This document shows, in pieces, positions 2,706-6,040 of a DNA stretch of 64,000 nucleotides. Position numbers and translations under genes: made by a program. Origin of the DNA: an uncultured Pseudomonadales bacterium (GTDB lineage Bacteria; Pseudomonadota; Gammaproteobacteria; Pseudomonadales; Porticoccaceae); the NCBI GenBank assembly GCA_943788875.1, contig CALSSA010000006.1, positions 310,001 to 374,000 of the forward strand, given 5' to 3'. Below the pieces are notes generated by a model. It was not told where the DNA came from, made no database searches, and was given only the letters and a program-made list of their open reading frames with translations. Numbering within the stretch: the first letter of the stretch is position 1; each line of letters begins with the position of its first letter.

Positions 2706-2738
2706 TTTACCTAGCAAATGATATTATGTATCATTTGC
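2706..2738 (+). promoter_or_regulatory. Candidate Zur operator overlapping the zrgA promoter
   Basis: Positions 2714-2738 form a perfect inverted repeat: arms GCAAATGATA and TATCATTTGC around a 5-bp centre. The AT-rich AATG...CATT edges resemble proteobacterial Zur boxes. A plausible sigma-70 promoter is embedded in it: TTTACC (2706-2711), a 17-bp spacer, then TATCAT (2729-2734). Bound repressor would cover the -10 element. A related 15-bp core recurs at 6020-6034. A Fur-family regulator is encoded 600 bp downstream. Palindrome seen; Zur binding inferred. Confidence 0.7.
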
Positions 2739-2764
2739 GTTCCTCGACGGCAAAGTATGACCTG

Positions 2765-3343
2765 ATGACTCTATTTCTCAACCTGGCCACTATTGGAATA
2801 GCTTGCTTACTTTCATCTGATCTCAATGGGGAAGTTTCACACCATGATCATGGGCCATTACCTCAAGATACACATTTACATGGCCATGTAGAGCTGAGGC
2901 TGGCTCTTGAAAACACCAGCCTTGAACTTTATCTGGAGTCTCCCTCAGTTAACATTGTTGGTTTTGAGCATAGAGCTACCTCAGCCCAACAGATACAGAC
3001 TGCGGAGTACGCTAAATCAATTCTTGAATCACCCACAGAGATCTTTTCGTTCTCAGATGGAAATTGCTCGCTGAGCCAGTCAAATATAGATTTTTCAGCA
3101 ATACTACAGACGACTGAAAGCCATAAGCTAGGCGATCATCATGAAGCACAGGAGGCAGATCACAGCGAAATTACAGCGGGCTACAAATACAACTGCCAGC
3201 AAGGGGTTGAGCTCGATATTATTAGGGTTGAGTTGATCGAATACTTCCCGGGAATAGAGAAAATCAAAGTTATCTGGCTGACCGATACCAAACAGGGTAC
3301 TGTTGAGCTAACTCCAAAATCCAACCTTATCCGGATAAGGTAA
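2765..3343 (+). CDS. zrgA: ZrgA-like periplasmic zinc protein (DUF2796)
   Basis: From the ATG at 2765 the product has 192 residues with a hydrophobic N-terminal segment (TLFLNLATIGIACLLSS) that looks like a signal peptide. The rest matches the DUF2796/ZrgA family: a His/Asp-rich stretch (SHHDHG) after the signal, then LELYLESPSVNIVGFEH and a C-terminal FPGIEKIKVIW segment. Another His cluster (DHHEAQEADH) lies mid-protein. The family is tied to zinc uptake and Zur control in Vibrio and Pseudomonas. The reading frame is open upstream to 2579, but that part overlaps the operator and the remnant, so I take the internal start. It begins the zinc operon. Confidence 0.82.
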   Translation: MTLFLNLATIGIACLLSSDLNGEVSHHDHGPLPQDTHLHGHVELRLALENTSLELYLESPSVNIVGFEHRATSAQQIQTAEYAKSILESPTEIFSFSDGNCSLSQSNIDFSAILQTTESHKLGDHHEAQEADHSEITAGYKYNCQQGVELDIIRVELIEYFPGIEKIKVIWLTDTKQGTVELTPKSNLIRIR

Positions 3344-3348
3344 TCTCT

Positions 3349-3810
3349 ATGAACAGTGTACAGAATACGATCAACCATGCTGAGAATAGCTGCAAAGCGC
3401 GTGGTGCAAAATTAACTATTAAGCGCAAGCAAGTTCTGTCTGGCTTATTACAATCTGACAAGGCTAAGTCCGCCTACGAGTTAGTTGACTACTGCAAGGA
3501 TAAATTCGGTGAAACACTACCGCCCATGTCGGTCTATCGTATTCTCGATTTTTTACAAGATGAACACTTGGTGCATAAACTTAAGTTGGCAAACAAATAT
3601 ATCGCCTGCTCACATATAACATGTGAGCACGAGCATGGGGTTACACAATTTCTAATCTGTAATAATTGCCAAACCGTAAGGGAAATATCGGTTAACAAGT
3701 CAACAATAAACGCATTGAAAATCAACGTAGAAGACGCTGGCTTTCAATTGGTCAACAGCCAATTAGAAATTAACTGCCTCTGCCATAGCTGCAAAGATAA
3801 AGCCGCTTGA
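3349..3810 (+). CDS. zur: Fur-family zinc-responsive repressor (Zur)
   Basis: A 153-residue Fur superfamily protein: N-terminal winged helix (AKLTIKRKQVLSGLLQS, then PPMSVYRILDFLQDEHLVHKL) and a C-terminal metal-binding dimerisation domain with HEHGVTQFLICNNC and a terminal CLCHSC. The two CxxC pairs would hold the structural zinc. Sequence alone cannot separate Zur from Fur with certainty, but the setting (ZrgA, MerC, COG0523 GTPase) argues strongly for zinc sensing. It starts 5 bp after the zrgA stop. It is the obvious candidate to bind the palindromes at 2714-2738 and 6020-6034, which would make it autoregulated. Confidence 0.87.
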   Translation: MNSVQNTINHAENSCKARGAKLTIKRKQVLSGLLQSDKAKSAYELVDYCKDKFGETLPPMSVYRILDFLQDEHLVHKLKLANKYIACSHITCEHEHGVTQFLICNNCQTVREISVNKSTINALKINVEDAGFQLVNSQLEINCLCHSCKDKAA

Positions 3811-3832
3811 CTCCTATACAGATGATTGAAAA

Positions 3833-4231: not shown

Positions 4232-4350
4232 CTAGCAGCTTCCCGCACAATGGTCTTACTCCCGCTAATACTGAAGACGCAACCTGTACAAATATCTTGA
4301 TGCTGGCCTGGATGAATAAATCGGGTTTGGTGCCGCGGTCCCCGGGATGA
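4219..4350 (+). pseudogene. Short HisI (phosphoribosyl-AMP cyclohydrolase)-like fragment
   Basis: A 43-codon frame starts inside the merC end and stops by ATGA overlap with the GTPase gene. Its product includes NGLTPANTEDA and ILMLAWMNKSG, resembling the N-terminus of HisI (typically LVPAIAQD...VLMLAWMNREAL). The zinc-binding and catalytic part is absent. COG0523 genes often travel with spare copies of zinc enzymes, HisI among them. I read this as the eroded stub of such a paralogue, now possibly serving only for translational coupling. Similarity covers about 25 residues, so certainty is limited. Confidence 0.5.
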
Positions 4351-5360
4351 GAGAAAACGCTGACATAGTTACAGCTGTTCCCACCAACATTATCACTGGG
4401 TTTTTAGGGGTTGGTAAAACATCTGCCATTTTGCATCTATTGAAATCAAAACCAGACCAGGAACGCTGGGCAGTTTTGGTCAATGAATTTGGTGAAATTG
4501 GGGTCGATGGCAGCCTGTTCAAAAGCCAGCATTCTGAAGAGGGCAATATTTTTATACGAGAGGTTCCCGGAGGATGCATGTGCTGTGCTGCAGGCTTGCC
4601 CATGCAAATCGCGCTGAATCAATTGCTTGCGCGTGCAAAACCGGACCGCTTATTAATTGAACCAACGGGACTGGGGCATCCGGTTGAAGTGCTCGAAGTA
4701 TTGACGGACGAATATTATTACAAGGCCCTGTCAATCGAAAAGATTATTACCCTGGTTGATGCGAGAAACTTAGCTGATGCGCGCTACACTGAGCATGCCA
4801 CGTTTAATCAGCAGATTGCCATTGCCGATGTTATTGTCGGCAACAAGCAGGATCTTTATCAACCAAAGGATAGAACTCAACTTGAGCACTACGCGAAGAT
4901 TAAATGTCAGTCTGAGGTGGAGGTAATATTTTCCGAGCAGGGCCAATTATCCCTAGGGGATTTAGAGGGACCTACTAAAGCCTCCGTCCGCTCCAACCCC
5001 CACCATCATGCCAATAGCAACCAACAAAATAACTTGGCTATTTCGCCCTTACCTGATGTTGGTTACCTTAAGGCTGTTAACCAAGGCCAAGGGTTTCATA
5101 CTGTAGGATGGCGTTTTGATTCAAACAAAGTTTTTAATCGACAGGCACTGTTTTTATTTTTAACTAGCGTTCTTGCTGAAAGGGTAAAAGCAGTTTTTAT
5201 TACTGATGAGGGTGTTTTTGGTTACAACATTACCCCTGATGCGTTAACTGAAATAGAGCTGGATGATTGCTTTGAAAGCCGTATTGATATTATTACCAAT
5301 GAAACCTGTGATGAATGGGAAGAGCAGCTATTAGCCTGCATCGCAACTGCTACAGGTTAA
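4347..5360 (+). CDS. COG0523 (CobW/YeiR-type) GTPase, putative zinc metallochaperone
   Basis: 337 residues. The Walker A loop GFLGVGKT is at residues 18-25. The COG0523 metal motif CxCC (GGCMCC) is at 77-80, and the guanine-specificity motif NKQD follows in the middle. A short His cluster (NPHHHAN) lies in the linker before the C-terminal CobW_C domain (VGWRFDSNKVFN onward). These proteins use GTP hydrolysis to deliver zinc to client enzymes when zinc is scarce. The start overlaps the HisI-like fragment (ATGA), implying coupled translation in the zrgA-zur-merC operon. The client protein is unknown. Confidence 0.88.
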   Translation: MRENADIVTAVPTNIITGFLGVGKTSAILHLLKSKPDQERWAVLVNEFGEIGVDGSLFKSQHSEEGNIFIREVPGGCMCCAAGLPMQIALNQLLARAKPDRLLIEPTGLGHPVEVLEVLTDEYYYKALSIEKIITLVDARNLADARYTEHATFNQQIAIADVIVGNKQDLYQPKDRTQLEHYAKIKCQSEVEVIFSEQGQLSLGDLEGPTKASVRSNPHHHANSNQQNNLAISPLPDVGYLKAVNQGQGFHTVGWRFDSNKVFNRQALFLFLTSVLAERVKAVFITDEGVFGYNITPDALTEIELDDCFESRIDIITNETCDEWEEQLLACIATATG

Positions 5361-5361
5361 G

Positions 5362-6000
5362 TTATTCCTGTTGATAGGCCTCATAATTGACCATCTCCAT
5401 ACTGTAGGCAGCCGTAGCCATATCATTTTCCACCAGCGATGCTTGCAGATCACCTGATATCCAAAACGGGTAATACAGGGCTTCAAGCTTGAGCCCCGTC
5501 GCGGACTTCACATAAATAATTTGGTTGGGTGCTGGCGGCGGCATATGCAGGCAAGCACCAAAATAAGGTACCAAGAAAAATTCAGTGATGGTTTGATCGC
5601 CATTAAATTCTATAGGCACAATAAACCCGGGAATACGTATTGCGCGGCCATCCATCTCAGACTTTACTCTTGTTGACACCAGAGCCTGCTGATAGCGGTC
5701 TTCCATCTCAACAACAATACTATTGTTCATTGAGCTGTTTAGCTGATCCTCAGCCGAACCATCTTCAACGTCAGTTATATAACTGGGTGGATTGGAAAGG
5801 ATATCAATCTCGTCCTGGGGTAGAAGATCAGACCATGCAATTGTCACATACTGACCTGACTGAGCACTCTGAGTCTCAACTTTTTTATCTTCGCCACTCT
5901 GGGCAAAAGCCTGAGCAATGAGTAAAGGCATCAAAGTTGACAAAACAATAACCTGAAGCCCAAATTTTCTTAACAATAGCAATTTAAGCACCACCGACAT
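5362..6000 (-). CDS. DUF3299 domain secreted protein
   Basis: 212 residues with an N-terminal hydrophobic signal (VIVLSTLMPLLIAQAFAQS). The C-terminal half is the DUF3299 fold: IRIPGFIVPIEFNG, EFFLVPYFGACLHMPPP, and KLEALYYPFWISGDL. The Cys-Leu-His motif is conserved in the family and might bind metal. No biochemical role is established to my knowledge, but DUF3299 genes are found beside ABC exporter pairs in zinc-repressed operons of Pseudomonas. It is divergent from the ABC genes across a 74-bp gap with the second palindrome, and converges with the GTPase gene (1-bp gap). Confidence 0.8.
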   Translation of the reverse strand: MSVVLKLLLLRKFGLQVIVLSTLMPLLIAQAFAQSGEDKKVETQSAQSGQYVTIAWSDLLPQDEIDILSNPPSYITDVEDGSAEDQLNSSMNNSIVVEMEDRYQQALVSTRVKSEMDGRAIRIPGFIVPIEFNGDQTITEFFLVPYFGACLHMPPPAPNQIIYVKSATGLKLEALYYPFWISGDLQASLVENDMATAAYSMEMVNYEAYQQE

Positions 6001-6014
6001 TTAAAAAAAGTTCG

Positions 6015-6040
6015 GTTGATGATACAGTGTATCAACATTT
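6015..6040. promoter_or_regulatory. Second candidate Zur operator, in a divergent promoter region
   Basis: The core at 6020-6034 is a perfect 7+1+7 palindrome, TGATACA-G-TGTATCA. It shares 12 of 15 positions with the core of the zrgA operator (2719-2733). Flanking bases GTTGAT and ATCAAC make a second overlapping symmetry. It lies between the DUF3299 gene (minus) and the ABC genes (plus), where one site could repress both. Similarity seen; regulator assignment inferred. Confidence 0.65.

Follow-up and report, generated by a model that had tools for sequence, protein, structure and literature searches.

Palindromic boxes in a Porticoccaceae zinc island as probable operators of the island's own Zur-type repressor

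The zinc island and its two palindromes

The DNA studied here is a stretch of 64,000 nucleotides (the window) from an uncultured Pseudomonadales bacterium of the family Porticoccaceae (contig CALSSA010000006.1, positions 310,001 to 374,000). Near its start lies a zinc island, in which zrgA is followed after 5 nt by a Fur-family regulator gene (zur2), then by merC and a CobW-type GTPase gene; beyond these, a DUF3299 gene and an ATP-binding cassette (ABC) pair diverge from a common gap (Table 1). Two palindromes, one in front of zrgA and one in the divergent gap, are probably the operators of Zur2, the repressor that the island itself encodes.

The genes had been named from the letters alone in a preliminary description, and all the identities are confirmed by family searches (ZrgA PF10986, FUR, MerC, cobW, DUF3299, ABC_tran and FtsX/MacB_PCD), as is the place of the regulator gene between both palindromes. 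The longest zrgA open reading frame (ORF) begins at 2579 and would include the first palindrome; the ATG at 2765 is taken as the putative start.

Table 1. Features of the window discussed in the text, with their positions in the window.
Feature	Position	Strand	Evidence or remark
Putative operator 1 (Zur2-type box)	2714..2738		core TGATATTATGTATCA at 2719-2733; ends 26 nt before the zrgA ATG taken at 2765
Putative operator 2 (Zur2-type box TGATACAGTGTATCA)	6020..6034		divergent gap between DUF3299 gene ATG 6000 (-) and ABC ATPase ATG 6075 or 6081
Possible sigma-70-like promoter (weak), TTTACC-17-TATCAT	2706..2734	+	-10 within operator 1; 9/12 matches
Possible sigma-70-like promoter of the DUF3299 gene (weak), GTGACA-18-TATCAT	6019..6048	-	-10 overlaps operator 2; 10/12 matches
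zrgA, periplasmic zinc-binding protein	2765..3343	+	PF10986 141.7 bits, cut-off 27.4; NF047873 110.6, under cut-off 185
zur2, putative Fur-family repressor, clade apart from classical Zur	3349..3810	+	PF01475 45.4 bits (gathering 23.1)
merC-like membrane protein	3833..4231	+	PF03203 105.1 bits
COG0523/CobW-type GTPase, not ZigA	4347..5360	+	PF02492 156.5 bits; ZigA NF038288 72.6 against cut-off 600
DUF3299 gene (zrgE-like)	5362..6000	-	PF11736 159.2 bits
ABC ATPase (zrgC-like)	6075..6761	+	PF00005 105.7 bits
MacB/FtsX-type ABC permease (zrgB-like)	6761..7996	+	PF02687 and PF12704
Inserted zinc island, approximate extent	2647..8107		holds both operators and the repressor; from alignment to relatives without the island

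The first palindrome reads GCAAATGATA-TTATG-TATCATTTGC. It had been described as a perfect palindrome of 25 bp; its place and its perfect 10-nt arms stand, but the 5-nt centre is mismatched (T/G, T/T), so that the structure is 10-5-10. The second is a perfect 7-1-7 palindrome, TGATACA-G-TGTATCA, and lies between the DUF3299 gene and the ABC pair as described. The 15-nt cores of the two are identical at 12 of 15 positions, the same count as before.

Both cores have the form TGATA-N5-TATCA, and they are the only two exact sites in the window. The half-site alone is not significant: with at most one mismatch it is found twice in the window, where 1.86 sites are expected (at least two in 56 of 100 shuffles), and in the whole genome there are six exact sites against five in a backwards control. 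Scans with mismatches are mostly noise, since up to two mismatches give 114 sites in this genome and 59 in the control. The window sites are distinguished by a pyrimidine at position 6 together with a purine at position 10. The four other exact sites in the genome are all inside ORFs and all without the purine at position 10.

We therefore refined the half-site with Y6 and R10, permitting A or T at positions 3 and 13. This pattern, TGWTAYNNNRTAWCA, has three sites in the genome (2,481,422 bases) and none in the backwards control. Two of the sites are the window boxes, and the third lies between a second Zur gene, zur1 (G000:C4:157557), and znuA (C4:156500-157249).

Conservation of the box in Zur2 loci and genomes

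For a wider survey, out of 347 stretches with a gene for a Zur2 relative, we used the best 80 (868,462 bases), selected with peptide patterns that favour the Zur2 clade. They come from Porticoccaceae, Cellvibrionaceae, Halieaceae, Colwellia, Shewanella, Photobacterium, Enterovibrio, Thiotrichales, Methylophaga, one Nitrosomonas and others; merC is present in 48 of them. With no motif presupposed, the commonest of the 1024 five-base half-sites is TGATA-N5-TATCA, present in 40 of the 80 loci (mean 1.09, standard deviation 1.91), and the commonest of 4096 half-sites is ATGATA-N5-TATCAT, present in 32 (mean 0.09, standard deviation 0.60).

The refined pattern TGWTAYNNNRTAWCA gives 81 sites, spread over 61 loci, against one site backwards, and TGATAYNNNRTATCA gives 39 sites in 34 loci against none. 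Of the 81 sites, 73 are intergenic, although intergenic DNA makes up 16.8% of the bases, and 77 are near the start of an ORF, the ORFs being called mechanically. The 25 divergent DUF3299/ABC gaps among the loci carry the strict pattern in 8 cases and the relaxed one in 10. In a matrix seeded with the exact sites and made symmetric, conservation is 0.97 at G2, 0.99 at Y6, 0.99 at R10 and 0.97 at C14, and 0.98 at both R7 and Y9.

The box also follows the repressor from genome to genome. We compared 56 genomes, including the one studied here, and counted Zur2 as present when an island-type Zur scored at least 120 bits (24 genomes with Zur2, 32 without). The strict box ATGATAYNNNRTATCAT is found in 22 of the 56 genomes and its control in none: 21 of the 24 with Zur2 have it, against 1 of the 32 without (Fisher p = 3e-11). 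Within the genus the numbers are 12 of 13 and 1 of 22 (p = 2e-7); both p-values are indicative only, as the species are related.

In relatives the boxes also stand in the same places. An exact TGATA-N5-TATCA lies upstream of zrgA or zur2 in L064, L065, L066, L142-L148 and L150. The counterpart of operator 2 is exact in L065 and has one mismatch in L064, L070, L072 and L078; in L068 a counterpart with one mismatch lies at the start of the DUF3299 ORF. In general the neighbours of the sites are zrgA, zur2, the DUF3299/ABC pair, ZigA (three tested, NF038288 about 703 bits against a cut-off of 600), dihydroorotase (NF006688 690.8 against 535), DUF1826, DUF2085, a DksA-type protein and an unknown protein. 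Further, one ZnuD-like and two other TonB plug proteins adjoin sites.

The sites thus lie upstream of orthologous zrgA/zur and DUF3299/ABC units and of further zinc genes (zigA, TonB receptor and dihydroorotase genes), which agrees with the check proposed in the preliminary description. It had named random frequency, unrelated genes and lack of conservation as signs to the contrary; these are not the general picture, but a few exact sites do lie inside unrelated coding genes, four in this genome and one in G038. At three sites with one mismatch (L101-L103) no zinc gene was recognised from the ORF starts alone, with no family search run.

Two further observations concern the sites themselves. 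At L065:18178-18197 and L075:8845-8864 two overlapping skeletons lie 5 nt apart, as in the two-dimer layout of E. coli Zur. In G046 the box TGATATGTTGTATCA (L100:1502-1516) lies within GCAAATGATA...TATCATTTGC, about 170 nt downstream of zur2 and upstream of a gene for a 244-residue protein without a Pfam or NCBIfam match; this gene may be a new one of the zinc-starvation response.

Zur2 and the resident Zur1

Zur2 belongs to the Fur superfamily (Table 1). It stays below the Zur equivalog NF008646 (86.5 against 167), as does the resident Zur1 (111.1). Its predicted model (predicted local distance difference test 87.1) best matches chains of the E. coli Zur-DNA complex 4mtd (template-modelling score 0.81-0.84, 28-29% identity), followed by 7dh8, holo XcZur.

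The zinc ligands known from E. coli Zur are His77, Cys88, His96 and Glu111 in site B and four cysteines in site A (PMC4219657). The equivalents in Zur2, H76, C87, H94, H96, E112, C104, C107, C145 and C148, are invariant in 20 of 20 Zur2 rows; whether H94 or H96 corresponds to His96 depends on the alignment. In a second set of 26 rows, some of them cut short, C145 and C148 are conserved only in at least 90%. Loci L009 and L030, which have internal stops, were left out of the alignments.

Within this region, residues 87-96 (window 3607-3636) form a CxHxxCxHxH motif of which C87, H89, C92, H94 and H96 are all invariant in the 20 rows, with C92 reaching only at least 90% in the second set. The Zur1 of the genus lacks an equivalent of C92 and of one of the two histidines. 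The motif is a possible third zinc site.

In the DNA complex of E. coli Zur each dimer reads RNNNYxxxRNNNY, where Arg65 contacts the first purine and Tyr45 the base across from Y (PMC4219657). The corresponding R64 and Y43 of Zur2 are invariant in 20 of 20 rows. Both window boxes fit the skeleton (G-ATA-T-TAT-G-TAT-C and G-ATA-C-AGT-G-TAT-C), as do G2, Y6, R10 and C14 of the fitted motif. The helix around Arg64 reads P(A/P)MSVYRIL in Zur2 and PPTVYRAL in E. coli Zur, a difference that may explain why A replaces T at position 3 of the box.

The same genome has a second, classical Zur, Zur1, beside znuA and with boxes of the TGTTATA type. A Zur1-type match is present here and in 32 of the 34 other genomes of the genus (63-80 bits, 30-38% identical to Zur2). 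In six of 11 named genomes there is a better Zur1 match elsewhere than Zur2, and in the other five the best match is, by position, Zur2 itself. A tree splits 32 Zur2 rows from nine others (Zur1, E. coli Zur and 7dh7) with a support of 100/99, with long branches flagged. Zur2 is thus a separate deep clade and not on the branch of characterised Zur; depending on the root, it may be a sister group of Zur.

The boxes of the two proteins differ mainly at position 3. Among 41 upstream regions of Zur1, 21 contain TGnTA-N5-TAnCA, in eight unique sites, and T stands at position 3 in 13 of the 16 half-sites and A in three. In contrast, the 69 unique sites of the Zur2 loci have A 83 times, T 34, C 13 and G 8 (Fisher test on A/T, p = 9e-5).

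The best natural exchange between the two types of box is found at zigA. In genomes with Zur2 it reads TGATA...TATCA in 13 of the 16 readable cases, against TGTTATGTTATAACA in G039 and TGTTATATTATAACG in G041, where there is only Zur1. G005 is unreadable at zigA, and L238 and L241, which gave no start motif, were read from the site scans instead.

The variant box thus tracks the island-type clade of Zur. The preliminary description suggested that the motif may be a variant of the classical Zur box. This holds: the skeleton is kept, and each window core agrees with the classical operator TGTTATANTATAACA at 10 of 14 positions. What it missed is the second, classical Zur and the tracking of the clade.

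Proposed control of the island, alternatives and apparent mobility

From sequence and homology we infer binding, repression, zinc as the signal and one dimer per box. With zinc present, a Zur2 dimer would bind G-ATA-Y-NNN-R-TAT-C, one dimer to each box. If Zur2 reads its box as its homologue in E. coli does, each half would be contacted by Arg64 at the outer guanine and by Tyr43 at the purine facing Y. When bound at box 1, the repressor would block transcription of zrgA-zur2-merC, perhaps with the GTPase gene; at box 2 it would block the divergent DUF3299 and ABC units. When zinc is short it would be released and the whole island expressed, zur2 included, which would amount to negative feedback. 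The self-encoded local Zur regulon of the preliminary description is thus supported by the conserved sites, their placement and their co-occurrence with Zur2. The positions also fit its proposal of one repressor for three transcription units, with the reservation, weighed below, that Zur1 might be the reader.

Several observations weigh against control by Zur2. Only 36 of 79 loci have a relaxed box at most 450 nt from the zrgA/zur2 match (18 strict), and 46 of 77 (24 strict) do so when the head is shifted up to a nearby zigA. Three of the 24 genomes with Zur2 have no strict box, namely G005, where the contig end cuts the region upstream of zigA, and G043 and G052, which have hybrid boxes. Conversely, G006 and G012 have the box at zigA without a detected Zur2. 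They contradict the link unless zur2 is missing from incomplete assemblies: G006 is 84% complete and its contig ends 0.5 kb past zigA, and G012 is 82% complete with no Zur2 in the 7 kb downstream. Further, a sigma-70-like match does overlap box 1, in line with the earlier claim that this box covers a -10 element, but promoter-like matches are at chance level overall (15 against a mean of 12.0, standard deviation 3.0). Control of znuABC where Zur2 is the sole Zur has little support, as among 13 znuA-family loci of such genomes (1.5 kb covered on either side) a relaxed box was found at one, 1.4 kb upstream. Finally, T stands at position 3 in 37% of the fitted half-sites and the fitted matrix gives classical boxes 14.5-26.1 bits; the specificities overlap, and cross-talk with Zur1 is therefore possible.

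This overlap also speaks for the strongest alternative, in which the resident Zur1 reads the boxes, alone or with Zur2 as a helper, in a single zinc regulon with a degenerate box. The skeleton is common to both types of box, a hybrid, TGTTATAATATATCA, lies in the znuA/zur1 gap of this genome, the zigA box persists in G006 and G012, where Zur1 is the only Zur detected, and the zrg operon of Vibrio parahaemolyticus is repressed by Zur with the predicted site TGAGTGTTATATTATAACACCCG (PMC9817125). However, the strict box follows Zur2 within a genus where 33 of 35 genomes have a Zur1-type match, and it is still present in 9 of the 11 genomes of the order that have Zur2 without a detected Zur1. Together with the change of the zigA box and the contrast at position 3, this makes the reading by Zur1 unlikely, and we prefer Zur2 as the reader.

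The boxes could also belong to Fur, the iron regulator, or be palindromes by chance. The 7-1-7 Fur box is TGATAATNATTATCA; its ends are the same TGATA...TATCA, and it agrees with the window cores at 11 and 10 of 14 positions. Nevertheless, the fitted motif has Y6, R7, Y9 and R10 nearly throughout, against A6, T7, A9 and T10 in the Fur consensus, a systematic difference at the inner positions by which Fur was rejected as regulator. The targets are moreover mostly zinc genes and the presence of the box tracks Zur2, so Fur is a very improbable reader. Chance would account for the bare half-site, which is about as frequent as expected in both window and genome, but it is contradicted by conservation, control counts and intergenic placement and can be given hardly any weight.

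The island has also changed place. Four relatives (G018, G028, G022 and G017) keep the neighbourhood from rimP, tRNA-Met and the DjlA-like gene to tRNA-Leu and secG, with none of the seven island proteins there; in G025 only the left flank is in view. Alignments follow the window to 2645/2646, the left junction in G018 and G028, and resume at about 8105-8108 (L310, L312, L313; 8108 in G028) or at tRNA-Leu at 8167 (L309; G018). In G028 the same island is on another contig. Its absence here in four relatives and its presence elsewhere in one of them mean that the island was relocated along with its repressor and both operators, either through horizontal transfer or through a rearrangement. It is apparently a self-regulated, mobile zinc unit, and seems to have moved as a whole into a genome that kept a classical Zur beside znuA. 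A plasmid home is not supported: a search of 72,556 plasmid records at E of at most 1e-15 gave 43 matches, all below 60% identity, the best (51-56%) being Acaryochloris and Vibrio replicons.

The flanks and one relative deserve mention on their own. Beside the island, window 1767-2646 aligns only piecewise to L309-L311, with about 1 kb or more missing; these are apparently decayed genes at the insertion site. On the other side, three tandem copies of 141 nt (8228-8650) overlap the end of tRNA-Leu(GAG) at 8167-8251, and several overlapping matches at the same tRNA-Leu in G022 and G017 make the repeat seem old in the genus. L255 (G008:C21) keeps the GTPase and DUF3299 genes and a 47-residue C-terminal piece of Zur2, with no box of at least 12 bits; it is perhaps a decaying island, and G008 was scored as without Zur2.

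ZrgA, DUF3299 and a MacB-like ABC pair also make up the zinc-responsive, Zur-repressed zrgABCDE system of Vibrio (PMC9817125, PMC9820375). There, however, the predicted site is of the classical TGTTATA type and the five genes are a single operon, in which the available parts of these reports note no regulator gene; here the units are divergent and include merC, a GTPase gene and the gene of a repressor from another clade. With E. coli Zur (4mtd) Zur2 shares the fold, the Tyr/Arg base contacts, the zinc ligands and the skeleton, but in the E. coli znuABC box two skeletons overlap, so that two dimers can bind (PMC4219657), against one skeleton in each window box, and position 3 is mostly A in the Zur2 box. 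COG0523 GTPases and the PyrC and DksA paralogues are common targets with the Zur-regulated COG0523 genes and zinc-free paralogues of PMC2770081, a study whose taxon-specific Zur motifs came from earlier sites and which, in the sections available, notes no second Zur clade. In P. aeruginosa, PA4063-PA4066 likewise places ZrgA-like, MacB-like and zrgE-like genes under Zur, but is proposed to be a cobalt-pyochelin exporter (PMC11481552); homologues of the ABC pair are thus reported as a zinc system in Vibrio (PMC9820375) and proposed for cobalt-pyochelin export in P. aeruginosa, and the island pair may import zinc or move another metal.

In this system, a divergent clade of Zur with a shifted box would exert the Zur-type control of the zrg genes. 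A literature search found no description of the Zur2 clade or its box in the texts it covered; earlier annotation in RegPrecise logos or paper supplements is possible. More speculatively, and with rather less than even confidence, Zur2 could be an orthogonal second zinc sensor. Cells with both Zurs would then run two zinc regulons, each with operators and a set-point of its own, and Zur2, its operators and the zrg genes, often with zigA, would be spreading as a self-repressing island through marine Gammaproteobacteria and beyond. The conserved C87-H96 motif might provide a third zinc site and with it a different threshold.

In this case two zinc repressors occur naturally together in a single cell, and their boxes differ mainly at one symmetric position. 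The separation of operators between Fur-family paralogues, and the travelling of regulators with their regulons, become directly testable. With the box as a concrete pattern, marine bacteria of the SAR92/Porticoccaceae type can also be searched for operators of zinc-starvation genes.

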